Of a stretch of DNA of 64,000 bases, positions 421 to 13,880 are shown one piece after another. Numbering within the stretch: position 1 is the first letter of the stretch; the number at the start of each line of letters is the position of its first letter. The translations under genes and the position numbers were made by a program. The DNA is from Pseudomonas frederiksbergensis (GTDB lineage Bacteria; Pseudomonadota; Gammaproteobacteria; Pseudomonadales; Pseudomonadaceae): the NCBI RefSeq assembly GCF_001952935.1, contig NZ_CP018319.1:5228001-5292000 (forward strand), given 5' to 3'. The notes under the pieces are model-generated. The model saw nothing but the letters and a program-made list of their open reading frames with translations. It did not search any database and was not told the origin of the DNA.

Positions 421-3318
421 TCACGCCGGCTTGGCAGCGTGAATCAGCGAGCGCGCACGTTTCGCCAGCTCGGTTCCGTCAGTTTCCGGCGACTGGTCAA
501 CCAGCGTGGCCAATACCTGTTGGTCCTCGGCCGTAGCGTCAGGGTGCTCGCACAGTTCGACCAGCGCTTGCAGCTCCAGCCACGGTGCTTCCTGGGCGCG
601 AGCCTCTTCAACTGCGCGCCGCACCGCAGCGATGCCGGCGTCGGGCTGACCCTGCGCTCGCGAGATCGCTGCCTCCAGCAGCAATAGTTGCGGCAGGTAG
701 ACGCGCTCGCCCAGTTCTTCGCCCACCCGAAATGCTTCCTGCAGCTCGACTTGCGCTGCGTTGCAATCACCTGCGAGCAGCAGCGCCTCGGTGGCGTAGC
801 CGAGCACCTCGCTGGCACCGGAGCGCATTCCAAGCCCGGTGTGTTCTTCATAGGCCTCGCGGATGCGACGGTAGCCGTCGCGCGGTGCACCGTTGCGCGC
901 GTCGGCCCAGCCGCGCCACCAGCGGCAAGCCGTACGCCCGAGTGCGAGTGAATATTCATCGACCAGCGCCTGCATGTCGTCGGCCAGCGCAGCCACACGC
1001 ACGTGGTTTCCCATCCGCACCTCGATCAACACCTCCTGCCAGGCGGCGACCAGCCAGGTCATGGGCTGGCGCAACGCCTGCGCGCGTGCCCGCGCTTGCT
1101 GCATGTGGATTCGGGCTTGCTCGATCAGACCAGAACGCACGAGTTCTATAGCCAGCATGCCATGCAGCATGACCTGAGGATCAGCCGCAAAAATCTCGTT
1201 CGTCCCGATGTCCAGCGGTTCGGCGATCGCGAGGGCGCGTTCCAGCCAACGGCGAGTCGTTTTTGTGCGTCCCTGGAGGTGATGCACCTCGCCCCGAACG
1301 ATGCACGCCGCCAGCAGGAGCTCTTGATCATTTGCGTCGCAGGAGAGGGTTTCAGCACGCTCCGCCACCTCGAGCGCCAACGCATAGTCGCCGCGCAGAC
1401 CAAGCAGATAGCCGAACCCGTGCAGCAGACGACCGCGCATGGGGTGTTCGGGGACATCCGCCAACAGCCTGTATGCACGTTCGAAGGCGCTTTTGGCTTC
1501 ACTGCCGACACCGAACATGTGGAAAGCCGAAACCCCTTGCAGCGTGGCCAGGGTAATTTCGAGCACATTGCGCTCCGTCCCTTCGGGAGCCTGCATCAAC
1601 AGGACCAAGGCGCGCTCAGTGAGGCCAATGCACAAGTCCGGGCTGAAGTGCAGCAGCGCGGCTTCTGCGGCCTCGGCGTAGTAACGCAGCGCAATCATCG
1701 GCTGCCGAGCCCGGTCGAAGTGCATTGCCAGCTCCGAGGCAGCAACCGGCACGCCGGTCGTGCGCTCGCGTTCGAGGGCAGCGCCGACCTGGCGATGGAG
1801 TTGGGTGCGCAATGAGCGCGGCGTGCGGTCGTACAGCACCTGGCGGAAGAGCGCGTGTCGGAAAGAGTGGGGTGGCTCTAGCGTCTCCTCAACTTCTGTG
1901 GCCCGCGATCGTATGAGCCATACCTGTTCGCGTATCAGCTCTTCACAGGCGTGGACCACCGACGCGAGGTCTCGCTCGAGGGCCAGTGAAACCGTCTCGA
2001 TGCGGAATTCGACCCCACACACCGCTGCGGCGGAGAGGAGGGTGCGTTGCTCGGGACCCAGCCTGGCGATGTAGTGATCAATGATGGTTGCGAGGTTTTC
2101 GGGAACCGCCAGATCCGCAAGCCGAGCCTCGATGGTGGCTTTGTCGTCCTTTGGGTCCATCACTTCACTGGTGATTGACGAAACGAACAACGGCACACCG
2201 TCGGTCCGCTCGTGCAGGGCGCGCACGAAGGTTTCATCGCGTGCCAGCGAGGTCGAACGCAACGCAATATAGGCAGCGACCTCGGTTTCCGAGAACGGGT
2301 CGAGCACCACTTCCTCGCACAGACGTTGCAGGCGCAGTTCGTGGCGCAAGGAGCTGAGGGGATGATCGAGCGCAACCACCTCGGCGAGGCGGAAGCTCGA
2401 CAGCCACATCAGCCGCGTACGGCCACGTCGCCGTGCCACATAGTTGATGAGCTGGACCGTCGCCCGATCGCTCCAGTGCAGGTCTTCGGTCACCAGCATC
2501 AGCGGGCGCTGCTCCGTGTAGCGGTCCAGCAATTCACCCATTTCCCGGAGCATGCGGTCCGGGCCGACACCGGCAAGCTCGCGCCTCAATGCGTCTTTCT
2601 CCTGCGTGGTACTCAGCCACGGGAGTTGCAGCAGCCAGGTCGGTGCCACGGCGCGCATCAGCGCCGGCAGGGTGGGGTCGGTGCGGCACAGATCGGCTAA
2701 CGCCTCTAGCACCGGCAGATACGGCTCGCCGACGCCGTAGTGCTCCACGCAATGGCCGCGTGCGCAGGCGATGTCGCCAAGGCCAGTGAGGAAATGTTCG
2801 ATCAACGTGGTCTTGCCGATCCCCGGCTCTCCGGCGAGCCAAACCACGGCGCGCTGGCCGCCATTCGCCCGCTCCCAGGCCCTTTGCAGCCTCGCGACCT
2901 CGTCAGTGCGACCGATGAATGACGGTGACGAAGGTGTGCCGGTGGCTGTAACTGTCGCGGATGCAGGCGGTATCGAAAGTGCGGAGGAGGGCGGGGCGAT
3001 GAAGCGATAGCCGCGCCGTGACACCGTCTCGATGAAACGAGGATGCCTGGGATCGTCGCCCAGTACCTTGCGCAGATCGCTAATGGCCGTCTTCAGGACC
3101 GAATCGCTGACGAACCGATGCCCCCACACGGCATCAAGCAAGGCATCCTTGGTCACCAGCGATCCTGGCTGGCGTGCCAGCGCGCATAACAACGTGAAGG
3201 GCGTCGGCGCCAATGCCACCGCTTGCCCATTGCGCGACAAACAGGCGTTGGACTCATCGAGCTCGAACTCGACGAAGCAGAGCAAGACTGGGTTGGGATG
3301 GGGCTGCGGACGTGCCAC
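421..3318 (-). CDS. Winged-helix AAA-ATPase transcriptional regulator (965 aa)
   Basis: A large one-protein signalling regulator. Residues about 12-108 form an OmpR/PhoB-type winged helix: the motif DAVWGHRFVSDSVLKTAISDL lies at 62-82 and the wing at RRGYRF. Residues about 132-400 form an AAA/STAND ATPase with Walker A GEPGIGKT at 163-170 and Walker B LMLVTEDLHW at 273-282. The last 450 residues are helical, TPR-like repeats. This order (CadC-like DNA-binding head, ATPase switch, TPR sensor) is known for regulators that oligomerise with ATP when an inducer meets the repeats. There is no receiver domain and no membrane segment. Targets are unknown; the 71-residue gene downstream and the divergent catabolic island to the right are the obvious candidates. 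Confidence 0.88.
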   Translation of the reverse strand: MARPQPHPNPVLLCFVEFELDESNACLSRNGQAVALAPTPFTLLCALARQPGSLVTKDALLDAVWGHRFVSDSVLKTAISDLRKVLGDDPRHPRFIETVSRRGYRFIAPPSSALSIPPASATVTATGTPSSPSFIGRTDEVARLQRAWERANGGQRAVVWLAGEPGIGKTTLIEHFLTGLGDIACARGHCVEHYGVGEPYLPVLEALADLCRTDPTLPALMRAVAPTWLLQLPWLSTTQEKDALRRELAGVGPDRMLREMGELLDRYTEQRPLMLVTEDLHWSDRATVQLINYVARRRGRTRLMWLSSFRLAEVVALDHPLSSLRHELRLQRLCEEVVLDPFSETEVAAYIALRSTSLARDETFVRALHERTDGVPLFVSSITSEVMDPKDDKATIEARLADLAVPENLATIIDHYIARLGPEQRTLLSAAAVCGVEFRIETVSLALERDLASVVHACEELIREQVWLIRSRATEVEETLEPPHSFRHALFRQVLYDRTPRSLRTQLHRQVGAALERERTTGVPVAASELAMHFDRARQPMIALRYYAEAAEAALLHFSPDLCIGLTERALVLLMQAPEGTERNVLEITLATLQGVSAFHMFGVGSEAKSAFERAYRLLADVPEHPMRGRLLHGFGYLLGLRGDYALALEVAERAETLSCDANDQELLLAACIVRGEVHHLQGRTKTTRRWLERALAIAEPLDIGTNEIFAADPQVMLHGMLAIELVRSGLIEQARIHMQQARARAQALRQPMTWLVAAWQEVLIEVRMGNHVRVAALADDMQALVDEYSLALGRTACRWWRGWADARNGAPRDGYRRIREAYEEHTGLGMRSGASEVLGYATEALLLAGDCNAAQVELQEAFRVGEELGERVYLPQLLLLEAAISRAQGQPDAGIAAVRRAVEEARAQEAPWLELQALVELCEHPDATAEDQQVLATLVDQSPETDGTELAKRARSLIHAAKPA

Positions 3319-3626
3319 GGTTGATTCCTAAAGACTAGACAGAGTGTGCGCCGCGATCTTCACGAGGCCGTCTTCAGCTATGCCTCCAATGACAACGCTG
3401 ATCAGCGCTGAAGCCAAGCGTCGCCGGTCGGAAACTGGCACACGCGCAAACCCGGTTCACGCCGCGCACTTCGGCTCGCCCCTTGGCTCCATCGCGGGTT
3501 GAGCATGATTCCAGAAAATAATGGCAAAAACATCAATATTGAAATATCTCTCAATATTGAATACCTTCACCTTGCCTGACGATGAGACCTCGCGTCTCAC
3601 GACTTCAATCACAACAAGGGCTCGAG
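3319..3626. other. Divergent intergenic region before the monooxygenase
   Basis: This 308-base gap separates the ATPase regulator (leftward) from the flavin monooxygenase (rightward). Its left part is GC-rich and shows no gene. The stretch 3515-3565 is AT-rich and carries two TCAATATTGA palindromes, listed separately. An AAGGG ribosome-binding site at 3616-3620 sets the monooxygenase start. Confidence 0.6.
3533..3560. promoter_or_regulatory. Tandem palindromic operator TCAATATTGA x2
   Basis: The perfect 10-bp palindrome TCAATATTGA occurs at 3533-3542 and again at 3551-3560, 18 bp apart from start to start, 67 bases before the monooxygenase start. Such spacing puts both sites on nearly the same DNA face. 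The likely ligand is the TetR protein encoded two genes on (5288-5932), which has no promoter region of its own; this link is inference. Confidence 0.6.
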
Positions 3627-5285
3627 ATGAACAACAACAAGAAAGTTTGCGAATTGCCTCCTGCCGCCGTCGACGTGCTGGTGATCGGTTATGGTCCGGT
3701 AGGTGCGACGATCGCGGCGCTGCTGGGCCGCTATGGGGTCACGACCCTGGTGCTGGACAAGGTCCATGACGTCGTACTGATGCCGCGTGCCATTGCCCTG
3801 GACAACGAGGCGCTCCGCATCCTGCAACAAGCCGGTTTGTCGGAAGATGCTTTCGAGAAGATCGTTATCCCTGAAGTGAGGATGCACTCCCCGGTACTCG
3901 GGCAGTTCGGTCGAGCCAATACCGAGGGGTGCGTCGACGGCCATCCGAAACTCGTGACGTTCTATCAACCCGACCTTGAATACGCGGTGCGCAGCCAGGT
4001 CTCCCGCCTGAAGTCAGTGACCAGTCTAGGTGGCTTCGAGCTTGAAAGCCTGGTCGAAGAGTCGGATGGCGTCGTCGCCTCCGTACGGGATGAGAATGGG
4101 CAGTCGCATTCCGTTCGCGCCCAGTATCTGATCGGAGCGGATGGTGCTAGCTCCAGGGTCAGAGCGCTGATTGGCCAGGAGTTCGAAGGGCGGAGCTATG
4201 CGGAGGATTGGCTGATTGTCGATGTCAAGAACCGGCATAAGTCAGCGATTGATCACATCGAGTTTCTCTGTAATCCGCGCCGTCCGACGCCGCACATGCC
4301 GGCACCCGGCGGCAGGGAGCGTTGGGAGTTCATGCTGCAACCCGGCGAGTCCCGGGAAGAGCTGGAAAGCCCGGAAAGCATAGCCCGGCTGATCGCGCCT
4401 TGGATCAACCCGCAGGAGCTGGAAATCGAGCGCAAGGCGGTGTATCGATTCCACGCGCGGTGCTGCAACAGATTCAGTAAGGGACGCGTCTTTCTCGCCG
4501 GCGACGCGGCGCACATCACCCCCCCTTTTGTCGGGCAGGGCCTCGTAGCGGGACTTCGAGATGGCGCCAACCTTGCCTGGAAACTGGTTTGGGTCCTTCG
4601 CGGCCATGCCGCGCCTGCAATACTCGATACCTATGACGTAGAGCGCCGCCCCCATGCCCAGGCGATGATCAATCTAGCGAAACTCATGGGCCGCCTGGTG
4701 ATGCCCAAAAACAAGATTGCAGCTTTCTTTATCCACGGCTTGATGCGCACGCTGGCGTTGACTCCCGCTACCAGGAGGTACTTCGAACAGTTGGACATCA
4801 AGCCTAAGAACACCTTCAAGCACGGCCTGTTCGTGCAGCATCGTCGGGGCGACAAGCTGGTACGTGGCAGCCTGTTCCCCCAAGCCTGGGTGCGCACTAT
4901 GCAAAAGCAGATCAAACTGAGCGACGATGCTCTTGGAGACAACCTGACCCTGGTTGGGTTGGGTGTTGACCCGTTGTCACTGCTAACCACTGAGCAGATC
5001 GTTTCCTGGGAAAAAATGGGAGGCCATTTCTTAGAGGTCAGAACGCGCGGCCAACGCTCCGGCGGCAGCTGTGACTTCATCGAAGACATGAACCATGACA
5101 TCCTGCCGTTGGCCCCTAAAGGAGTGCTGGTCGCGGTTCGTCCTGACCGTATCATCATGCACCACGCCCCTGGTGCAGAGGCAGACAGTCTCCTTCGTGA
5201 CTGCCGGAGCCTGCTGGTTGGCAAACACGCCACTCCTGATAGCGTTTCCGTTACCATCAACGAGCCCACTAGATTACGAGCTTGA
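3627..5285 (+). CDS. FAD-dependent aromatic monooxygenase, MhpA-like
   Basis: A 552-residue flavoprotein of the class A aromatic hydroxylase family (PheA/MhpA type), which uses NAD(P)H and O2 to put a hydroxyl on a phenolic ring. The FAD fold is clear: GYGPVG at residues 21-26 with the ribose-binding Asp near 44, the DG motif in LIGADGASSR, and the GD motif LAGDAAHITPPFVGQGL near residue 290. A thioredoxin-like C-terminal part follows, as in MhpA. I chose the ATG at 3627 because AAGGG sits 6 bases upstream; an upstream ATG at 3582 has no such site. The TetR gene follows 2 bases after its stop. Family is sure; substrate is not known. Confidence 0.88.
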   Translation: MNNNKKVCELPPAAVDVLVIGYGPVGATIAALLGRYGVTTLVLDKVHDVVLMPRAIALDNEALRILQQAGLSEDAFEKIVIPEVRMHSPVLGQFGRANTEGCVDGHPKLVTFYQPDLEYAVRSQVSRLKSVTSLGGFELESLVEESDGVVASVRDENGQSHSVRAQYLIGADGASSRVRALIGQEFEGRSYAEDWLIVDVKNRHKSAIDHIEFLCNPRRPTPHMPAPGGRERWEFMLQPGESREELESPESIARLIAPWINPQELEIERKAVYRFHARCCNRFSKGRVFLAGDAAHITPPFVGQGLVAGLRDGANLAWKLVWVLRGHAAPAILDTYDVERRPHAQAMINLAKLMGRLVMPKNKIAAFFIHGLMRTLALTPATRRYFEQLDIKPKNTFKHGLFVQHRRGDKLVRGSLFPQAWVRTMQKQIKLSDDALGDNLTLVGLGVDPLSLLTTEQIVSWEKMGGHFLEVRTRGQRSGGSCDFIEDMNHDILPLAPKGVLVAVRPDRIIMHHAPGAEADSLLRDCRSLLVGKHATPDSVSVTINEPTRLRA

Positions 5286-5287
5286 TA

Positions 5288-5932
5288 ATGCATTCCCCCA
5301 TTCTTCCTTTAGAAGCTGCGCCAGAACCTCTCACGAGAGGCCACAAGAAGCGTGAGCGCACCCGTCGCGGCCTGGTGGACGCGGCATTGCGTCTTGTCGC
5401 ACGTAAGGAGGTGGGGGAGATCGCGCTGTTCGAGGTCGCCGCGGAAGCAGAGGTATCCAACGGTACCATCTACAACTATTTTCGAACTCGCGACGAAGTA
5501 CTGGAGGCGGTGGGCATCGCCATGGCCACCGAGTTCTCCGATGCCATTTCCGCCCTGAGCACGGACGTGCACTGCGGCGCACAGCGACTTTCGATTGGCG
5601 TGCGCATGTTTGTATGCCGGGCCGCCGACGATCACGAATGGGCCAATGCACTGCTGCGCATCATCCATTTCGATCAGGCCATGCGCTCGCGTTTGGCTGC
5701 CCATGTACTTGGTGACCTGCGTGAAGGTCTGCGCGAGGGCACTTTCGCTTACGAGGACGAAGGCATTGCCCTGGACATGGTTGTATCGTGCACAACCGGA
5801 GCAATGCGCTCGGTTGTCGAGGGGCGTGCAGTGGCAGAGCACGATCGGCGGGTCGCCGAAATGATTCTCCGGGCTCTGGGCGTAACACCTGCCAGAGCCA
5901 AGAGAATTGCCGGCAAGCCGCTACCTGCCTGA
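5288..5932 (+). CDS. TetR-family repressor of the monooxygenase operon
   Basis: A 214-residue TetR-type repressor. The helix-turn-helix lies near residues 45-70 (IALFEVAAEAEVSNGTIYNYF), followed by a ligand-binding helical domain. It starts 2 bases after the monooxygenase stop, so it is cotranscribed with that enzyme and probably autoregulates through the TCAATATTGA pair at 3533-3560. Its last 12 bases overlap the end of the convergent reductase gene. A TTG 6 bases further upstream could also initiate. The inducer is probably a substrate or intermediate of the island, which is inference. Confidence 0.85.
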   Translation: MHSPILPLEAAPEPLTRGHKKRERTRRGLVDAALRLVARKEVGEIALFEVAAEAEVSNGTIYNYFRTRDEVLEAVGIAMATEFSDAISALSTDVHCGAQRLSIGVRMFVCRAADDHEWANALLRIIHFDQAMRSRLAAHVLGDLREGLREGTFAYEDEGIALDMVVSCTTGAMRSVVEGRAVAEHDRRVAEMILRALGVTPARAKRIAGKPLPA

Positions 5933-7189
5933 TCTGATGTCAGCATTGATCGGCCAGGCTTGATCAATCCATCGCCGATAGCTCTTTGCCTGGCGACGAG
6001 ACTTCAGCTGATTGCCGATCAATGCCATGAGGGGCGATGTCCCAGGTTGTGTCCGTTTGCCTTGGCTCAGCAAGCCAAGCTGCTTCTTGATCACCGACGC
6101 CACTGCGAGCGATGCCAGCGCCTTGTTCTTCCAGTGAACGACGATGGGCTCCACTTTGATGTCCCGACCTGCCATCCACTGTCTCGGCAGGGCTGGCTCG
6201 ATTGCCAGCGCAGTGGCAAGTCCGACCATCGACACTGAGCCGCTCACCACTCGCTCCGCGACCTCCTTTCTACGCACGCCGCCAGTGACCATCAGCGGCA
6301 TGCGCGCTATTTCTCCTATTCTCTCCGCGAACTCGAGAAAGTAGGCTTCTCGAGCCAAGCGGCTGCCATCGCGGGTCTGCCCCTGCATCGCCGGGCTTTC
6401 GTAGCTACCACCCGATAACTCGACCAAGTCGACCGCCTTGGCGTTGAGCATTTCCACCACGCGAGCCGCATCCTCGGCATTGAAACCGCCTCGCTGAAAA
6501 TCCGCGGAATTGAGCTTCACCGCGACGCAAAAGATCGGTGCTACTCGCTGACGTATCGCGTCGATGGTTTGCAGCAGAATTTGCGCACGATTTTCCAGGC
6601 TACCGCCCCAGCGGTCATTACGCTGGTTGGTCAAGGGAGACAGGAATTGGCTAAACAGATAGCCATGCGCTGCATGAATTTCCACGCCAGTAAATCCGGC
6701 GCGTTCTGCCAGCACCGCCGCTTGGGTATAGCGCTCAATCAGCTCTTCGATCTCCTGCTCATTCAAGGCCCTGGGCGGCACAAAAGCTTTTGACAGTCCG
6801 GGGATATCGACCGCAACTGCGGAGGGACCCCTTGCCGGTTGCCCCATGGAAGCCAATAGCTGTCGTCCGGGATGATTGATTTGCATCCAGGCCTGGGCCC
6901 CACGACTGCGGCAGGCATCTGCCCATAGCCGGAAATTCACCAGGTTCCGATCGTCCTCAAGCACGACGCCAGCCGGTCCGGTCAAGGCGTGGCGATCAAC
7001 CATGACGTTGCCAGTGATGATCAGACCGGCCCCACCTTCCGCCCAACGCTGATAGAGCTTGACCAGCGCTTCCCCAGGAGCGTGATCATCATTGGCAAGG
7101 TTCTCCTCCATGGCAGCCTTGGCAATTCGGTTTGGAATCACCGTGCCGTTAGGCAATCGAAGCGGTTTGAAGAGCTTTGAGCCGGTCAT
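5921..7189 (-). CDS. Old-yellow-enzyme NADH:flavin oxidoreductase
   Basis: A 422-residue FMN enzyme of the old yellow enzyme / 2,4-dienoyl-CoA reductase N-terminal family, which reduces activated C=C bonds. The TIM barrel is complete. The signature GVEIHAAHGYLFSQFLSPL is followed by NQRNDRWGGSLENR, and the phosphate-binding part MVTGGVR lies later. There is no C-terminal FeS/FAD part, so it is the short form. The start at 7189 is backed by AAGGA at the right distance; a longer frame to 7291 would cross the palindrome at 7229-7244. It diverges from a TetR gene and overlaps the other TetR gene tail-to-tail by 12 bases. It may saturate an enone in the ring pathway; substrate unknown. Confidence 0.88.
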   Translation of the reverse strand: MTGSKLFKPLRLPNGTVIPNRIAKAAMEENLANDDHAPGEALVKLYQRWAEGGAGLIITGNVMVDRHALTGPAGVVLEDDRNLVNFRLWADACRSRGAQAWMQINHPGRQLLASMGQPARGPSAVAVDIPGLSKAFVPPRALNEQEIEELIERYTQAAVLAERAGFTGVEIHAAHGYLFSQFLSPLTNQRNDRWGGSLENRAQILLQTIDAIRQRVAPIFCVAVKLNSADFQRGGFNAEDAARVVEMLNAKAVDLVELSGGSYESPAMQGQTRDGSRLAREAYFLEFAERIGEIARMPLMVTGGVRRKEVAERVVSGSVSMVGLATALAIEPALPRQWMAGRDIKVEPIVVHWKNKALASLAVASVIKKQLGLLSQGKRTQPGTSPLMALIGNQLKSRRQAKSYRRWIDQAWPINADIRSGR

Positions 7190-7228
7190 GTTCTGTCCTT
7201 CAGCTAATAAAAATTCGGCCAATACAAA

Positions 7229-7244
7229 TGAACATGCGTGTTCA
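7229..7244. promoter_or_regulatory. Operator TGAACA-N4-TGTTCA before the reductase
   Basis: TGAACATGCGTGTTCA is an inverted repeat with 6-bp arms, 40 bases upstream of the reductase start. A near-identical copy lies at 7369-7384 before the divergent TetR gene. The pair most likely binds that TetR protein (7418-8032), which would then repress both directions. Confidence 0.75.
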
Positions 7245-7368
7245 AATATGTCAATGCGAAGGACTTTTATTGGCCAGACGACATCGATCATAGCGTCTAG
7301 ATTATTAGGTTTTAGGTCTTTTTTCGGACGAAAAAACCTACATTCTTAAAAATAGGGTTGACGTAAAA

Positions 7369-7384
7369 TGAACACGAGTGTTCA
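7369..7384. promoter_or_regulatory. Operator TGAACAC-N2-GTGTTCA before the TetR gene
   Basis: TGAACACGAGTGTTCA is a perfect inverted repeat with 7-bp arms, 34 bases upstream of the GTG start at 7418. It overlaps the likely promoter (TTGACG at 7358-7363), as expected for an autorepressor. It matches the site at 7229-7244 at 14 of 16 positions. Confidence 0.75.
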
Positions 7385-7417
7385 ATTGATCCATGAGGTA
7401 ATCCTGGAGAGAGAACC

Positions 7418-8032
7418 GTGGAATCCCTGAATCCAACACAGCGCCGTATCCATCAAGCTGCCTTTCGCCTGTTCGCCGAGAGAGGCACCTCGCAAGTGAA
7501 CATCCTTGACCTCGCGCAAGAGGCAGGCGTGGCGCGCGGAACGGTTTATAGCAACATCGACAGCATGGAAAACCTGTTTGAGGCGGTCGCCAGCCATCTC
7601 GCGAGGGAGATGCATGAGCGCGTCAACAAGAGCTTCAATTCCCTCTCGGATCCAGCTCATCGCCTTGCCAATGGCATTCGATTCTTCATTCGCCGAGCAC
7701 ACGAAGACTCCCAGTGGGGGGCGTTCATCCATAAATTCGCCATGAGCAATTCGGCGTTGCGCGAAATGTTCAGCAGCCAGGCGACCAAGGATCTTCTGAG
7801 CGGGCTTGCCACCGGGCGCTACAGGTTTCAGCAGGAACAATTGCTCTCGATACTGACGCTGATATCGAGCTGTGTGCTTGGCGCGATTTTCCTGGTGCTG
7901 GAAGGTCACAAAACGTGGCGAGAGTCGGGCTCTGATACCGCCGAGCTGGTATTGCGCGCATTGGGCGTGCCGCCAGAAGAGGCGCGTGCGTTGGCGACCC
8001 AAGAGTTGCCGGCACTTCCATCTCTCGACTGA
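7418..8032 (+). CDS. TetR-family repressor, divergent from the reductase
   Basis: A 204-residue TetR-type repressor with helix-turn-helix at about residues 27-50 (NILDLAQEAGVARGTVYSNI). The GTG start at 7418 is preceded by GGAGAG. Two matching TGAACA/TGTTCA palindromes flank the divergent promoter region, one on each side, which is the usual arrangement for a repressor controlling itself and its neighbour. It is a distant relative of the other TetR in this island: both end in a similar LRALGVxPxxARA stretch, which suggests an old duplication. A hairpin follows the gene. Confidence 0.87.
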   Translation: MESLNPTQRRIHQAAFRLFAERGTSQVNILDLAQEAGVARGTVYSNIDSMENLFEAVASHLAREMHERVNKSFNSLSDPAHRLANGIRFFIRRAHEDSQWGAFIHKFAMSNSALREMFSSQATKDLLSGLATGRYRFQQEQLLSILTLISSCVLGAIFLVLEGHKTWRESGSDTAELVLRALGVPPEEARALATQELPALPSLD

Positions 8033-8056
8033 GCTCGTAATTGATCTGACTGAATA

Positions 8057-8078
8057 AACCCCTGAGTTTTCAGGGGTT
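8057..8078 (+). terminator. Hairpin after the TetR gene, no U tract
   Basis: AACCCCTGA at 8057-8065 pairs perfectly with TCAGGGGTT at 8070-8078 around a GTTT loop. No run of T follows, so it may be a weak terminator or an RNA-stabilising stem before the dioxygenase gene. Confidence 0.5.
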
Positions 8079-8117
8079 CGGGACAGCTTTGCTCTAAAAA
8101 CCCGGAAAACAAGAACA

Positions 8118-9209
8118 ATGAACAACAAAAACGAATTGCACCGGTTGGCGACATCACACCCTGCGCGGCATCCGCAGCCGACGGTAAAGGCCCAGGATCT
8201 GACTCACCTGATCTTCCAGCGACCGGACTTGAATGAGGCTGCGCGTTTCCTGACTGACTTCGGCCTGACGGTAAGTCGGCAGGAGGCCGATACGCTCTAT
8301 CTGCGGGCCACCAAAGCCACTGCCTATTGTTACCGTGTCCAACGTGCCGAACATGCACGTTTTATCGGGTTCGGACTTGCAGTGCAGTCCCTGGAAGATC
8401 TGAAAAAGCTCACTCGAATCCCGGGTGCGTCATCGGTCGAGAAATCGGAACATCCGGGTAAAGGGTATTACGTCAGGCTGACGGATCCGTCCGGCTTCAT
8501 TGTGGAAGCCGTTTGCGACCAGACGCCAGGCAAGACGCTGGCACATAGAGCTCCTCTGCACTGGAACCTGGTGCACGAGCAACCGCGGATCAACGCTACG
8601 CAACGCCCGCCGATTGCTCCCCCCGAAGTACTCAAACTGGGTCACATCGTCCTTGAAGTGGCCGACTACCAAGCGACCTGTGCCTGGTATACGCAGCATT
8701 TCGGGTTTATTCCCAGCGATGTGCAGGTACTCCCCGACGGCACGCCTATCGTCACTTTCATGCGCCTCGATCTCGGTGACATTCCTGCGGATCACCATAC
8801 GCTCGCGATTGCGCAAGGGTTCATGGCCACCTACAGCCATAGCGCCTATGAAGTCGTCGATGCAGACGCCGTGGGTATGGGGCAGCGCGTCCTGCGCGAG
8901 CGCGGTTGGGCGCACTCATGGGGGATCGGCCGGCACATTCTGGGCAGTCAGATCTTCGATTACTGGCAAGACCCTTGGGGCGATAAGCACGAGCATTACT
9001 GCGACGGGGATATTTTCACGGCCACTCGGCCTACGGGCATTCATCCGGTGAGTCCCGAGGCAATGGCGCAGTGGGGGCAACGCATGCCCAAGAGTTTCAC
9101 CAAACCCAAGTTGACCCTGGCCAATGTGCTGCTGCTGATCCGCAACCTGCGACGCAGCCCGGACCTGACCATTCGCAAGCTGATAACACTCATGCGGATG
9201 TTTGGGTAG
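8118..9209 (+). CDS. Two-domain VOC extradiol-type ring-cleavage dioxygenase
   Basis: A 363-residue protein with two vicinal-oxygen-chelate domains (about 25-135 and 170-300), the layout of type I extradiol dioxygenases that open catechol rings next to the hydroxyls. The C-terminal domain keeps a plausible metal triad: His176 in LGHIVLEV, His241 in YSHSAYEV and Glu292 in DKHEHY. The N-terminal domain has lost such residues, as is usual. An extra tail of about 60 residues is unlike the classic BphC/HsaC length of about 300. It begins a run of three tightly spaced genes with the hydrolase and CoA ligase. Ring cleavage is inferred; other VOC activities are possible. Confidence 0.75.
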   Translation: MNNKNELHRLATSHPARHPQPTVKAQDLTHLIFQRPDLNEAARFLTDFGLTVSRQEADTLYLRATKATAYCYRVQRAEHARFIGFGLAVQSLEDLKKLTRIPGASSVEKSEHPGKGYYVRLTDPSGFIVEAVCDQTPGKTLAHRAPLHWNLVHEQPRINATQRPPIAPPEVLKLGHIVLEVADYQATCAWYTQHFGFIPSDVQVLPDGTPIVTFMRLDLGDIPADHHTLAIAQGFMATYSHSAYEVVDADAVGMGQRVLRERGWAHSWGIGRHILGSQIFDYWQDPWGDKHEHYCDGDIFTATRPTGIHPVSPEAMAQWGQRMPKSFTKPKLTLANVLLLIRNLRRSPDLTIRKLITLMRMFG

Positions 9210-9219
9210 AGCTGCCGCC

Positions 9220-10341
9220 ATGTTTGACAACTCAACCCGGTTTGGCCGGCGGGATGTGCTTAAAGCCGGCGCTTTGATTGCCGGCGGTGCGTGGGTCTAC
9301 ACCGTTGTCAGCCCGCCTTCAGAACGACACCACAGTTCTCGCGCCACCGAACGCGAGACAAACGCCGCTCCAGGAGTACCTTCAATGTCTGCTGTACACG
9401 TAGTCCGCTTTGAATATCAGAACGGTATCCACTGGGGCGTGCTTCGCCAGGGCCGAATCACGATTGTCCCTGGCGCTTTTGAAACCACCGGTGACTTCAT
9501 TGGCCACAACAGTATCGATGACCTCGCTCAACTGAAAGGCCCGGAGCTGGAGGAGGGCGAAGTAAAACTGCTGTCGCCGGTGACCCGTAACCAGCAATTC
9601 GTCTGCCAGGGCGCCAATTACCGTCAGCACATGATCGAGTCGGGCATGGACCCGGATGCGAAAAAATTCAACATGATCTTCACCAAGGCGACGAGTTGCC
9701 TGGTAGGGGCTGACAGTGACCTGATCAAGCCGCGCCACGTGCGCTTCCTTGACTACGAAATTGAACTGGGGCTGGTGATGAAACGCGCGATCACTGGTTC
9801 CGTTTCTGTTACCGACGCCAATATGCATGAGTTCATTGCAGGCGTCGTCATCGTCAATGACTACTCGGCGCGTGACATTCAGATTCCCCAGATGCAGTTT
9901 TACAAAGGCAAGAGTTACCGCACTTTCGGTCCGGTCGGCCCGTACCTCTGCCTTCTGGATGCCTCGAGCATTCGTTACCTGAAAGACCTGCAGTTGCGCC
10001 TGACGGTCAACGACCAGGTGCGACAGAACGACAGCACGGCCAACCTGGTTTACGGCCCCGCTGAAACCCTGACCGAACTCTCCGCCTTGCAAGATCTCGC
10101 CGTTGGAGACCTGATCGCCACCGGTACTCCTGCGGGCTGTGCGCTAACGATTCCTTCACCTGCGAAACAGCGCATTGCGGCCCTGATGCCGGAAGCCACC
10201 AAGTGGAAGCTTTTCCTCAAGGCACAGGAAGGCCGGACGCAGTATCTCAAGGCAGGTGACGTGGTCGAGGCGCGCATTCGCAGCGCCGATGGCGTGATCG
10301 ACCTCGGTGTGCAACGCAACCGAGTCGTGGAGGAAGCCTGA
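9220..10341 (+). CDS. Fumarylacetoacetase-family hydrolase with Tat-like N-terminus
   Basis: The C-terminal 300 residues are a fumarylacetoacetate hydrolase / HpcE/MhpD-type fold that cleaves or hydrates ring-fission products. The metal-binding pattern is present: DYEIELGLVM and later NDYSARDIQ. From the ATG at 9220 the protein has an unusual leader with RFGRRDVLKAGALIAGGAWV, which resembles a twin-arginine signal or anchor. A second ATG at 9385 gives the normal cytoplasmic size (318 aa) and has its own GGAG 8 bases upstream, so it may be the main start. It lies 10 bases after the dioxygenase, and its stop overlaps the ligase start (TGATG), implying translational coupling. Chemistry on the meta-cleavage product is inference. 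Confidence 0.78.
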   Translation: MFDNSTRFGRRDVLKAGALIAGGAWVYTVVSPPSERHHSSRATERETNAAPGVPSMSAVHVVRFEYQNGIHWGVLRQGRITIVPGAFETTGDFIGHNSIDDLAQLKGPELEEGEVKLLSPVTRNQQFVCQGANYRQHMIESGMDPDAKKFNMIFTKATSCLVGADSDLIKPRHVRFLDYEIELGLVMKRAITGSVSVTDANMHEFIAGVVIVNDYSARDIQIPQMQFYKGKSYRTFGPVGPYLCLLDASSIRYLKDLQLRLTVNDQVRQNDSTANLVYGPAETLTELSALQDLAVGDLIATGTPAGCALTIPSPAKQRIAALMPEATKWKLFLKAQEGRTQYLKAGDVVEARIRSADGVIDLGVQRNRVVEEA

Positions 10342-12242
10342 TGGTGGTGCAGAACCTGAACGATATCGAAAGTCTCGAACGAGTCCCCTTGGCGGAGCGT
10401 GGCCTGGCTTGCAGCACTTATGAAGCGCTACGTCAGGCGGCGGAGCGCACCCCCCAGGCACCGGCGCTGAGCTTCTTCGCCGATGCCGCCAATTTCAAAC
10501 ATACCTGCGAGTGGAACTACTCCCAGCTCTTCGCGGATATCACCCGCGCGGCCAATGCTTTCCATGACCTGGGTATAAAACCGGGTGAGGTGCTGGCCTT
10601 CATCTTGCCCAATCTGCCGGAAACCCATTTCACGATATGGGGCGGGGAGGCGGCGGGGATCGTCATGGCGATCAATCCTCTGCTCGAGGCCAAGCAAATG
10701 GCTGGCTTGCTGAATGCCGCGAAGGCATCGGTAGTGGTGACACTCGCGCCGACACCAGGCAGCGATCTGTGGCCCAAACTGGTTTCGCAGCTGGATCAGT
10801 TACCCACGGTCAGGTCTGTCGTTTGGGTCAGCATGGAACCCTATGTCGCCGAACCTGTGCGTGAGGCTCTGAAAGTCTCGGCACTGAAGGAGCGAGACTT
10901 ACACAGCGGTATCGCGATTCATGATCTGCAATCGCTGATGAACACTCAGCCGCACACACACCTGAAGAGCGGTCGGCAAATCCGCCAGGAGGAGTGCTCC
11001 TCCTACATCTGTACGGGCGGCACCACCGGGCTGCCCAAGATCGCGGTGCGTACTCATGGCTCGGAAGTCTTCAACGCATGGGCCGTGGCTGCTCACTTAC
11101 AGCCACGCAGTGGTGGCGAGGTTATCTTTTGTGGCCTGCCGCTGTTTCATGTCAATGGCCAGCTGGTGACTGGACTGATGCCTTGGACTCAAGGCGACCA
11201 TGTGATCCTCGGGACGCCTCAAGGGTATCGTGGCGAGGGGGTGATCCCACGATTCTGGGAGATGGTCGAGCACTTCGGTATCAACCTCTTTTCCGGCGTG
11301 CCTACTGTTTATGCTGCACTTCTGCAAAATGAATGGCAGGGCCGCGATCTATCCAGTCTTCGCTTTGCCATGTGTGGCGCCGCTCCCATGCCGGCTGAAC
11401 TTTTCCGAGAGTTCGAGCGCCGGACCGGGGTGAAAATCCTTGAAGGTTACGGCCTCACTGAGGGGGCCTGCGTCTCATCAATCAATCCGCCCCATGGCGA
11501 GCGCCACATCGGCTCCATCGGGATACGGATCGCCTACCAGAATATGCGCGCGGTCTTGCTCAACGATTCGGGAGAGTACCTGCGCGACGCCAACGTGGAT
11601 GAGATCGGCCTCATCACGATCAGTGGACCGAACCTTTTCGAGGGCTATCTGGATGAGCGTCATAACCAGGGCCTCTGGATCGATATCGATGGTCAGCACT
11701 GGCTGAATACAGGTGACTTGGGGCGCCAGGATGCGCAGGGGTATTTCTGGCTGACCGGACGCAAGAAGGAGTTGATCATCCGTGGCGGTCACAACATCGA
11801 TCCCAAGCAAATCGAGGAGGCGCTTCAGGCGCATCCTGCTGTCGCCTTGGCCGCTGCAATCGGCAGCCCCGATGCTTACTCGGGCGAGGTACCGGTCGCC
11901 TACGTTCAACTGCGCCCCGGGCAAGCCTGCAACGCCGAAGAACTTGAGGCATTCGCTCATCTCAACATCAGCGAGCGGGCGGCCGTTCCCAAGCGCATTG
12001 AAATCCTCGAAGCGTTGCCACTGACTGCCGTGGGCAAGATATTCAAGCCTGCCTTGCAGCAGCGGGAAATTGCCAGAGTAGTCCGGCAGGAAGTGGAGCG
12101 CATGTGTCTGCAGGAAGTTGAGGTAGAGGTGGTACAGGATGGACGACGCGGGCTAGTCGCATGCATCCGGGCGGGAAGCAATCAGGAGTCCCTGGCCCTT
12201 CTTCTAGGGCGCTATAGCTTTCAAGTGGAGTGGCTTGAATGA
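10341..12242 (+). CDS. Acyl-CoA synthetase (AMP-forming ligase)
   Basis: A 633-residue member of the ANL adenylating family, which activates a carboxylate as acyl-AMP and then acyl-CoA. The phosphate loop reads CTGGTTGLPK near residue 227. YGLTEG is the A5 motif, TGDLGRQDAQGYFWLTGRKKE the A7/A8 hinge, and the catalytic lysine lies in LTAVGKIFKP. Its start overlaps the hydrolase stop by one base, so the two are coupled. The extra 60 residues after the usual C-terminus are unexplained. With FadL downstream it may activate the incoming acid or a ring-fission acid. The substrate cannot be read from the sequence. Confidence 0.88.
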   Translation: MVVQNLNDIESLERVPLAERGLACSTYEALRQAAERTPQAPALSFFADAANFKHTCEWNYSQLFADITRAANAFHDLGIKPGEVLAFILPNLPETHFTIWGGEAAGIVMAINPLLEAKQMAGLLNAAKASVVVTLAPTPGSDLWPKLVSQLDQLPTVRSVVWVSMEPYVAEPVREALKVSALKERDLHSGIAIHDLQSLMNTQPHTHLKSGRQIRQEECSSYICTGGTTGLPKIAVRTHGSEVFNAWAVAAHLQPRSGGEVIFCGLPLFHVNGQLVTGLMPWTQGDHVILGTPQGYRGEGVIPRFWEMVEHFGINLFSGVPTVYAALLQNEWQGRDLSSLRFAMCGAAPMPAELFREFERRTGVKILEGYGLTEGACVSSINPPHGERHIGSIGIRIAYQNMRAVLLNDSGEYLRDANVDEIGLITISGPNLFEGYLDERHNQGLWIDIDGQHWLNTGDLGRQDAQGYFWLTGRKKELIIRGGHNIDPKQIEEALQAHPAVALAAAIGSPDAYSGEVPVAYVQLRPGQACNAEELEAFAHLNISERAAVPKRIEILEALPLTAVGKIFKPALQQREIARVVRQEVERMCLQEVEVEVVQDGRRGLVACIRAGSNQESLALLLGRYSFQVEWLE

Positions 12243-12275
12243 GTGTGAGTTCGCCTTCGTAAGTTAAACAAACAT

Positions 12276-12305
12276 GTCCTGGTACTCATCTGTCAGGACC
12301 TTTTT
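12276..12305 (+). terminator. Weak intrinsic terminator after the ligase
   Basis: GTCCTG at 12276-12281 pairs with CAGGAC at 12294-12299 and is followed by TTTTT at 12301-12305. The stem is only 6 bp with a 12-base loop, so readthrough into fadL-like transcription is likely. Confidence 0.4.
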
Positions 12306-12399
12306 CACAACTTCGATCAACTCCAACCGGCACTGACATGTGCACGGGAAGGCCAAGCCTTGCCTGCGTGCAACCAACAAAAAGAATAAGAGGTGAACA

Positions 12400-13719
12400 A
12401 TGAAAGTGAATAACCGTGCGATCCCGTGTTTCTCTGTTCAGCAAGCATTTGCTTCCTGGATCAAGTTAACCGGCGCCGTAGCCATACTCAGCGCTTCAAC
12501 AACTGCGGGCGCCAATGGCATTGCCCTGAACGAACAAAGTGCAAGCAGTGCGGGAACTGCTTATGCGGGAAGGTCGTCATCCGCGCTGGACGCCAGCACC
12601 ATCTTTGGCAACCCTGCGGGCTTAACCAAATTGAAGCGTAGTGAGATTTCCGGCGGAGCCGCGGTCGTCTCGGTGAGCGACGACATTAGTGATGCGCAGA
12701 GCAGTGCCCCAGGAACAAATGAGGGGGACTCGGTGCCTTTGGGCGTCGTCCCTTTCGCCTATATGTCGACGCCGCTTGATGATCGCTTTTCGATTGGTCT
12801 GGGCCTCTATGCTCCGAGTGGTTTGATCAATGATTACGAGAGCAGTTTTCAGGGCCGTTTTCATGGTTCCTATAGCACGACCAAGGAAATAACCCTGCAG
12901 CCCACCATTGCCTTTCGGATCAATGATTACGTGTCCATTGGTGGTGGACCGACCATAAACCGTTTCAATGCAAAGCTTAAGAATTACCTGGCCACCGGTG
13001 CCCTGAACAATGGAGAGGACACGCTGGTCACCATCAAAGGCGATGACACTGCACTTGGCTACAACGTAGGCATCCTGGTCGACTTTACCGAGGCAACCCG
13101 TTGGGGGATTAACTATCACTCGAAGGTGGACTATGAGCTCGAAGGGCATACTGAGGTTTCTGGCTCCCCGAGCGTTATCCCGCTGGACGGAACGTATGAC
13201 AACAAGATAGACCTCACGATGCCTGAGTCCGTGGACACGTCTATCACCCATCATTTCAATAGTCGCTGGACGGGCTACTTGGGGACCACCTGGAAACGTT
13301 GGAGCCGAATCCAGAAGGTCGAGGCCGTCAACAGCGGTCTTTCGCCCATGGGCCAGGCGGCTGGCTTGGGACATGTGATAGAAGAAATGAACTGGCGCGA
13401 CACTTGGAGCACCGCCGTTGGCGCCTCCTATCAATTGAACCAACAATGGCTGCTGCGCGCTGGCTACGCTTATGATCCTTCGCCTATCAGAAATGCTGAT
13501 CGTAGCGTGCGTATTCCTGTTGGCAATCGCCAAGCCGTGACCTTGGGCGGTGCTTACTCGCCGAATTCCGATCTGACGATAGACTTTGCTTATGGTTATC
13601 TCTGGGATTCCAACGTCTCCGTAAAGCAATCGAACAATTCCGGTGTGCAACCGCAATACAGCGCTAATTACGACAACAGTGCGAATGGAGTTTCAGTGCA
13701 GGCAACCTATCGGTACTAA
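12400..13719 (+). CDS. FadL/TodX-family outer-membrane hydrophobe channel
   Basis: A 439-residue outer-membrane beta-barrel of the OmpP1/FadL/TodX family, which moves fatty acids and aromatic hydrocarbons across the outer membrane. A signal sequence of roughly 38 residues ends at AGA-NGIALNEQ, and the family hallmark follows: SSALDASTIFGNPAGLTKL, with the NPAG turn of the N-terminal hatch. The C-terminus ends in an aromatic-rich strand (VQATYRY), as needed for barrel assembly. AGAGGTG precedes the ATG. The stretch looks lower in G+C than genes to the right (32 of 60 bases from 12601). As the last gene of the island it suggests a hydrophobic substrate. Confidence 0.9.
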   Translation: MKVNNRAIPCFSVQQAFASWIKLTGAVAILSASTTAGANGIALNEQSASSAGTAYAGRSSSALDASTIFGNPAGLTKLKRSEISGGAAVVSVSDDISDAQSSAPGTNEGDSVPLGVVPFAYMSTPLDDRFSIGLGLYAPSGLINDYESSFQGRFHGSYSTTKEITLQPTIAFRINDYVSIGGGPTINRFNAKLKNYLATGALNNGEDTLVTIKGDDTALGYNVGILVDFTEATRWGINYHSKVDYELEGHTEVSGSPSVIPLDGTYDNKIDLTMPESVDTSITHHFNSRWTGYLGTTWKRWSRIQKVEAVNSGLSPMGQAAGLGHVIEEMNWRDTWSTAVGASYQLNQQWLLRAGYAYDPSPIRNADRSVRIPVGNRQAVTLGGAYSPNSDLTIDFAYGYLWDSNVSVKQSNNSGVQPQYSANYDNSANGVSVQATYRY

Positions 13720-13834
13720 TCAACGCGACTCCATTTTTAATAAAGTCAATTTTTGCAAGCCTTCCTGAAAGTTTATCTTTAATCGTTCATCAACTATCCC
13801 AACGGGGAGTGATGCAGTTCTGCCTGTCAATCAG

Positions 13835-13880
13835 CACCCACTGCCGCGAATACTTTCGCGGTAGTGGGTGGGTTTTCATT
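13835..13880 (+). terminator. Strong intrinsic terminator after the FadL gene
   Basis: CACCCACT and CCGCGAA at 13835-13850 pair with TTCGCGG and AGTGGGTG at 13855-13870 (one mismatch, a TACT loop), followed by a T-rich stretch. It closes the catabolic island. The rest of the gap 13720-14039 shows no gene; a 17-bp motif in it is listed separately. Confidence 0.85.

Follow-up and report, generated by a model that had tools for sequence, protein, structure and literature searches.

Within a 64 kb stretch of the 6.2 Mb Pseudomonas frederiksbergensis genome (contig NZ_CP018319.1; the whole stretch is referred to here as the window) lies a cluster of eight genes that was originally predicted to form a 10 kb island for meta-type degradation of a hydrophobic ring compound. 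All eight genes are present and Pfam and NCBIfam profiles place each of them in its predicted family. On the plus strand, a flavin adenine dinucleotide (FAD)-dependent hydroxylase of group A and the MhpA family (3582..5285; PF01494, 225.8 bits) is adjoined by the regulator TetR1 (5282..5932; TetR_C_40, PF21306 47.6 bits, PF00440 34.7 bits). An accessory FMN reductase of the OYE family (5921..7291; PF00724, 181.7 bits) is encoded on the minus strand and diverges from a second regulator, TetR2 (7418..8032, plus strand; TetR_C_40, PF21306 63.2 bits, PF00440 44.2 bits). The latter is the first gene of an operon that continues, on the plus strand, with a two-domain VOC type I extradiol dioxygenase of 363 amino acids (8118..9209; PF00903, 48 bits), a FAH-family hydrolase (9202..10341; PF01557, 160.8 bits) with a twin-arginine-like (Tat-like) leader ahead of a conserved domain starting at about 9385, and an acyl-CoA synthetase of the PRK07529 subfamily (10341..12242). 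A FadL/TodX-type outer-membrane channel, an accessory uptake gene (12400..13719, plus strand; PF03349, 392.1 bits), completes the set. Ortholog lengths suggest start sites at 3627 for the hydroxylase (552 amino acids, the length seen in the related locus L029) and at about 7189 for OYE. As had been predicted, Pfam profiles detected neither a Rieske component nor an aldolase/dehydrogenase pair among the eight genes.

The classical names first given to some of these proteins are loose, although the broad families hold. The hydroxylase scores below the curated cut-offs of four MhpA-type equivalogs (461.7 against 546, 322.7 against 853, 319.6 against 966 and 307.2 against 1135) and passes the broad subfamily model PRK06183.1-3 only (431.8 against 390), whilst the channel falls short of the FadL equivalog (156.2 against 585). 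The ligase, by comparison with its model, belongs to PRK07529 over its full length (908.9 bits against a cut-off of 632, residues 3-631). The best PDB sequence match of the OYE-family protein is 7fev (236 bits).

The VOC protein has the hallmarks of a type I extradiol dioxygenase, as judged from its sequence and an AlphaFold model (mean predicted local distance difference test score, pLDDT, of 83.8): the two-domain VOC fold, a 2-His-1-Glu set and second-sphere His and Tyr residues. Residues H176, H227, H241, H273, Y282 and E292 are invariant in 20 aligned relatives. The best fold matches are 3b59, 1mpy (catechol 2,3-dioxygenase), AphC, LapB, an RHA1 dioxygenase and HPCD (homoprotocatechuate), at 16-23% identity. 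H176, H241 and E292 align with a His, a His and a Glu of 3b59 (Mn(II)-bound, according to its title) and are predicted ligands, the aligned residues being those that we take to bind the metal. Scores against the curated equivalogs lie far under the cut-offs for BphC (48.6 against 366.45), HsaC (26.6 against 450), HpaD (57.7 against 321.4) and catechol 2,3-dioxygenase (46.6 against 320.2). Assignment to the Hsa, Bph, Hpa or classical mhp systems was rejected on these curated cut-offs, in line with the original view that the enzymes are not those of mhp, hpa or hsa; models for nah, which that view also covered, were not scored.

The FAH protein contains the sequences NYRQHMIE and FLDYEIELG, presumably the H..E dyad and the E-x-E metal motif of FAH hydrolases, alongside its match to PF01557, and it scores below the cut-offs for HpaG (104.5 against 276.4) and a rhamnonate-pathway hydrolase (127.2 against 500). 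A search of the host genome found no second close FAH, the next best being 26% identical, which fits a single cut.

How widely the set is shared was assessed by scanning species genomes with an alignment of the VOC protein. The best 80 of at least 537 confirmed relatives were compared, each as a stretch made up of the VOC gene and up to 10 kb on each side; all counts out of 80 refer to these loci, and L numbers denote individual loci. The genera represented include Pseudomonas, Burkholderia, Alcanivorax, Marinobacter and Myxococcus, amongst others, and the closest named VOC relatives among the matches listed are from Pseudomonas fluorescens H24 (95% identity) and from P. jessenii and others (93%). 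FAH lies directly 3' of VOC in 80/80 loci, with a gap of at most 181 bp. A ligase relative is found in 68, and for 65 of these its start lies within 700 bp of the FAH 3' end; in the other three the called open reading frame (ORF) extends back over FAH. OYE occurs in 19 loci, all of them Pseudomonas. Uptake-type genes differ from locus to locus (FadL in 18, a DUF1302 plus DUF1329 pair in 13, OmpW in 30), and further partners are an amidohydrolase (AH1, 10 loci) and a PhyH dioxygenase (8 loci). Nine of ten Pseudomonas stretches keep both the hydroxylase-TetR1 block and the TetR2-VOC-FAH-ligase block, with L035 retaining the second only. The VOC gene is present in 31 of 298 sampled Pseudomonas genomes (E ≤ 1e-100), 27 of which also encode the hydroxylase, and the hydroxylase-VOC-FAH core is present in Alcanivorax and Marinobacter too.

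Ring cleavage and hydrolysis are the core of the set, hydroxylation and ligation are nearly so, and the uptake genes are swapped between lineages. FadL and OYE, put forward in the original prediction as parts of the pathway, are indeed present in the window but are optional rather than core. The cluster is a real, conserved catabolic gene set and is more than a chance grouping, because its order recurs across genera and its promoter palindromes occur in exact form nowhere else in the genome.

These palindromes are predicted TetR operators, a function suggested by their sequence and position. Upstream of the hydroxylase, two copies of TCAATATTGA stand 8 bases apart (3533..3560) and form a candidate TetR1 operator. 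The window holds two exact copies against 0.01 expected, and the exact pair is unique in the genome. At least one copy is found in 22 of the 31 Pseudomonas loci, mostly 31-100 bases before the called start of the hydroxylase; the carriers are 21 of the 25 hydroxylase-bearing Pseudomonas loci together with L050, whose hydroxylase is broken, whilst none of the five Pseudomonas loci in which the hydroxylase was not found has a copy. In L050, the hydroxylase gene lies in fragments at 5345-7042, via mutation or sequencing error. Two candidate TetR2 operators with the pattern TGAACA-N4-TGTTCA (7229-7244 and 7369-7384) occupy the divergent OYE/TetR2 intergenic region. They are the only exact matches genome-wide, where the reversed-pattern control gives none; with up to two mismatches the window has four matches against 1.87 expected, so that the two extra ones are at about chance level. 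The exact pattern is seen in 26 of the 31 Pseudomonas loci (all except L059, L062, L063, L064 and L101), and in L066 two sites adjoin a divergent hydroxylase. Both sites are kept in six loci in which OYE was not found (L051, L054, L055, L056, L058 and L061), and therefore the site at 7229 need not serve OYE. Co-regulation of the cluster, which the original prediction requires, is probable in the light of these shared predicted operators.

The island had also been described as bounded by terminators, which applies at most to its right side. There, a probable intrinsic terminator (13835..13870, plus strand) has a 16-bp stem with 10 GC pairs and a T-rich tail; this call is based on stem length, because the full scan yielded 10 sites and shuffled sequence 10.2. 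None of the 10 sites in the window scan falls within 3300-5000, and a scan for consensus promoters found three against 4.5 expected. The left boundary is instead a divergent gene, a large regulator with OmpR-type helix-turn-helix, AAA and TPR domains (424-3318, minus strand), whose ORF family is represented in 11 of 81 clustered sources, the window counted.

The strongest pointer to the chemistry comes from the hydroxylation step in relatives. Many Burkholderiales and some Pseudomonas loci, in which the FAD hydroxylase was not found, encode a molybdopterin enzyme with a 4Fe-4S subunit. By stretch, 48 of the 80 loci carry the FAD enzyme only, 23 the molybdenum enzyme only, two carry both and seven neither (Fisher p 7e-12, uncorrected for kinship), and the 4Fe-4S partner is present in 25/25 loci with the molybdenum enzyme. 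For the loci with neither, tblastn found the hydroxylase in pieces in L050, a match at 35% in L120, distant relatives only in L105 and no hydroxylase in the stretches of L057 and L074; L109 and L119 are on contigs of less than 5 kb. The molybdenum large subunit belongs to PF21423 (pyrogallol hydroxytransferase-like) and matches pyrogallol hydroxytransferase 4v4c along most of its sequence (915.7 bits for the Burkholderia and 919.9 bits for the Pseudomonas protein). According to a review, the two functions known for this family are conversion of resorcinol to hydroxyhydroquinone and of pyrogallol to phloroglucinol (PMC10100899). Relatives of the cluster thus carry a full-length member of the family of resorcinol hydroxylase RhLS and pyrogallol transhydroxylase (4v4c), along with the FeS subunit; whereas the functions listed for that family are anaerobic (PMC10100899), here the enzyme adjoins a dioxygenase that needs O2.

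Whole-genome searches at E ≤ 1e-100 found no FAD hydroxylase relative in 16 of the 23 genomes of molybdenum type, and no molybdenum enzyme was found in the host genome at E ≤ 1e-60. Among the 298 Pseudomonas genomes, five encode the molybdenum enzyme; all five are among the 31 VOC carriers, and in them it is encoded on the strand opposite to VOC at a distance of 2.3-3.5 kb. Three species with both types have a separate cluster for each hydroxylase (L073 and L115; L077 and L091; L104 and L107). On an Ensifer plasmid, genes for a molybdenum enzyme, FeS subunit, TetR regulator, ligase (55% identical), two VOC proteins, FAH (35%) and an outer-membrane transporter stand in a row, and a Salipiger plasmid has a looser version of this arrangement. 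The family of the AH1 amidohydrolases, finally, includes gamma-resorcylate and 5-carboxyvanillate decarboxylases. Taken together, the molybdenum enzyme of relatives, the Ensifer set and the amidohydrolases favour a 1,3-dihydroxybenzene ring. The relatives point to a resorcinol-type ring, a type that the original prediction did not name.

Several further genes were seen at these loci. Near the molybdenum hydroxylase, L049 (7525-8418), L059 (2564-3574) and L110 (8744-9658) have a further VOC gene with 36-43% identity to that of the window; in L059 it is accompanied by an additional FAH and a gene resembling alcohol dehydrogenases. L060, L065, L116 and L105 encode two additional, distantly related MhpA-like hydroxylases (27-34%). 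An amidohydrolase gene is their neighbour in the first three of these loci, whereas in L105 it lies at the opposite end of the operon. Perhaps these genes feed the pathway from an aromatic acid, as an upstream branch.

A quite different substrate, a steroid, terpenoid or alkylphenol whose degradation begins with CoA activation or enone reduction, was suggested in the original prediction, and the joint presence of FadL, a CoA ligase and OYE speaks for it. We consider this very unlikely. The steroid- and terpenoid-like reading finds no support, because the HsaC, BphC and HpaD models are so far from being reached; OYE is confined to Pseudomonas and to fewer than a quarter of the loci, and the relatives carry an enzyme of resorcinol-hydroxylase type. 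CoA activation as an early step has also become less likely, since the ligase gene follows VOC and FAH (gene order being weak evidence by itself) and since one Streptomyces locus has an acetoacetate-CoA ligase (816.4 against a cut-off of 520.9) after its VOC, FAH and hydroxylase genes. That ligase suggests that a 3-oxo acid is what is activated. The broader claim, meta-type degradation of what is probably a hydrophobic ring compound, is supported.

From these observations we infer a substrate, products, ring positions, cut site, ligase substrate and role for OYE as follows. The cluster would direct TetR-controlled meta-cleavage of plant or microbial phenols with a resorcinol-type (1,3-dihydroxybenzene) ring that bears a hydrophobic side chain, probably an alkyl group, a reading to which we give an even chance of being correct. 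The compound would be admitted by FadL, and the FAD hydroxylase would introduce a third hydroxyl, forming a 2,3,5-trihydroxyalkylbenzene, the ring of which VOC would open beside the alkyl carbon (extradiol cleavage) to a 2,4,6-trioxoalkanoate. For a 5-alkylresorcinol, by chemistry like that of Mhq and hcd (see below), this product would be R-CO-CH2-CO-CH2-CO-COOH. FAH, most likely behaving as an acylpyruvase, would then split the diketone into pyruvate and a 3-oxo acid. The latter would need a CoA ligase, which would convert it to a 3-oxoacyl-CoA that could undergo thiolysis and enter beta-oxidation. For OYE, reduction of either a quinone or a C=C bond is the probable role. More tentatively, and with the balance somewhat against it, the relatives may represent a widespread and undescribed alkylresorcinol pathway with an interchangeable first step, catalysed either by an O2-using flavin hydroxylase or by an O2-independent molybdenum resorcinol-hydroxylase/transhydroxylase, with both routes leading to a single extradiol dioxygenase, a FAH resembling acylpyruvases and a 3-oxoacid-CoA ligase. 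A role in degrading type III polyketide phenols made by the strain itself was rejected, PF00195 not being found in the genome.

The proposed chemistry resembles that of the known orcinol, mhq and hcd pathways. An orcinol pathway of Pseudomonas putida was reportedly described by Chapman and Ribbons in 1976; it shares with the cluster the predicted intermediates 2,3,5-trihydroxyalkylbenzene and 2,4,6-trioxoalkanoate, to which the cluster adds a CoA ligase and a lipid channel. We know of no genes for that pathway. The hcdABC genes of Pseudomonas mandelii 7HK4 serve to degrade 3-(2,4-dihydroxyphenyl)propionate, whose ring is of resorcinol type. Hydroxylation gives 3-(2,3,5-trihydroxyphenyl)propionate, the extradiol enzyme cleaves this to a 2,4-dihydroxy-6-oxo-dienedioate, and a FAA-family enzyme then carries out hydrolysis, the last products being proposed only (PMC6222606). 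The Mhq pathway for methylhydroquinone passes through a trihydroxytoluene and 2,4,6-trioxoheptanoate and, by its description, starts from a 1,4-diol rather than the 1,3-diol proposed here (PMC8571283).

These precedents raise the possibility that the cluster is itself a small-phenol pathway of hcd/mhq type, in which a water-soluble or 1,4-diol substrate, a dihydroxyphenylpropionate or an alkylhydroquinone, is converted to a 2,3,5-trihydroxy compound and a trioxo acid by the same lower pathway. Compared by description, hcdABC and the cluster share their three enzyme classes (FAD hydroxylase, type I extradiol enzyme and FAA/FAH-family hydrolase), and the Mhq intermediates are of just the kind expected. 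The hcdABC layout differs, however, with three genes in one putative operon encoding proteins of approximately 62, 31 and 20 kDa; the text consulted names neither a CoA ligase nor a channel, OYE or TetR (PMC6222606). In the cluster, by contrast, the hydroxylase is separated from the 363 amino acid VOC by regulators and OYE. Most loci, moreover, are flanked by genes for FadL, DUF1302/1329 or OmpW, which argues for a hydrophobic compound, and we regard this small-phenol reading as unlikely, if still worth considering.

A flavonoid or isoflavone A-ring pathway, like fde or ifc, would involve FAD-dependent 8-hydroxylation of the resorcinol-type A-ring, VOC cleavage, release of a phenylpropanoid acid for CoA ligation and reduction of the flavone C=C bond by OYE. 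Flavonoid A-rings are likewise resorcinol-like, and ifc, in which daidzein is hydroxylated at C8, pairs a FAD monooxygenase with a glyoxalase-type dioxygenase (PMC11069340), as by description do both fde and the cluster with its VOC enzyme. The ifc and fde systems use cupin enzymes, however, and FadL goes unmentioned in the text consulted (PMC11069340). No IfcD-like cupin is among the eight genes of the window; cupin genes are annotated in two of the relatives compared, some 8 kb from VOC in L024 and in L126. Against a flavonoid substrate, too, is the hydroxylase-VOC-FAH core of Alcanivorax and Marinobacter, which are alkane users, and all in all we think this explanation improbable.

The alkylresorcinol reading has its own difficulties. 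In the VOC model, residues 272-277, including the invariant H273, have a pLDDT below 50. The ligase was not found in 12 of the 80 loci, amongst them the short-contig loci L109 and L119, though in L109 a ligase begins at the contig end. The acetoacetate-CoA ligase is present in only one of the seven actinobacterial loci compared (L026, L028 and L127-L131); of the others, two encode a relative of the window ligase (38-39% identity) within the operon, a third has one (30%) at a distance of approximately 5 kb and the remaining three show none. For the hcd pathway, the proposed cut gives acetylpyruvate and the side-chain acid, unlike pyruvate and a 3-oxo acid (PMC6222606). The two small Ensifer VOC proteins show no match to that of the window at E ≤ 1e-8, and the one amidohydrolase searched against the PDB matches 2f6k, a 'metal-dependent hydrolase', best (144.7 bits), with the decarboxylases at 71.5 bits or less. 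The FAD hydroxylase is encoded elsewhere in 7/23 genomes of molybdenum type and is also kept in 3/5 Pseudomonas genomes with the molybdenum enzyme, and the two could therefore be parallel or successive enzymes. A strict either/or exchange of the hydroxylases was rejected on these figures, which show that the counts by stretch overstate the split.

The Tat-like leader of FAH (9220-9384) also misfits a purely cytoplasmic pathway. By reading, 24 of 79 loci have such a leader (L042-L047, L050, L053-L059, L062, L063, L066, L068, L071, L089, L092, L101, L112 and L114), 26 having been flagged, of which L065 and L111 were rejected by eye, and L120 not being scored. Orthologs in the Burkholderiaceae mostly begin at the domain (318 amino acids) and lack the leader, and codon-position conservation was too noisy to prove that it is translated. 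Twin-arginine motifs also start one amidohydrolase in L034 and one in L037. Amongst the actinobacterial loci, L026 is on a Prescottella equi plasmid that has a VOC-FAH-hydroxylase set with a TetR gene and also carries vapB.

In the literature searched, from which subscription journals were mostly absent, no paper was recognised by its title or the opening of its abstract as a description of this gene set or of genes for alkylresorcinol catabolism, a result that does not prove absence. The idea of an undescribed pathway stands to that extent, with chemistry of a known kind. What was a vague 'unknown aromatic' island has become a short list of candidate substrates and reactions, and a conserved pathway is now marked in Pseudomonas, the Burkholderiaceae and marine genera such as Alcanivorax and Marinobacter. 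If the proposal is true, it would provide a route by which the phenolic lipids of cereals, fungi and bacteria can be mineralised and would assign genes to the long-known orcinol-type route. It would also mean that a type of molybdenum hydroxylase known from anaerobes operates in aerobic ring cleavage, beside an oxygen-dependent dioxygenase.

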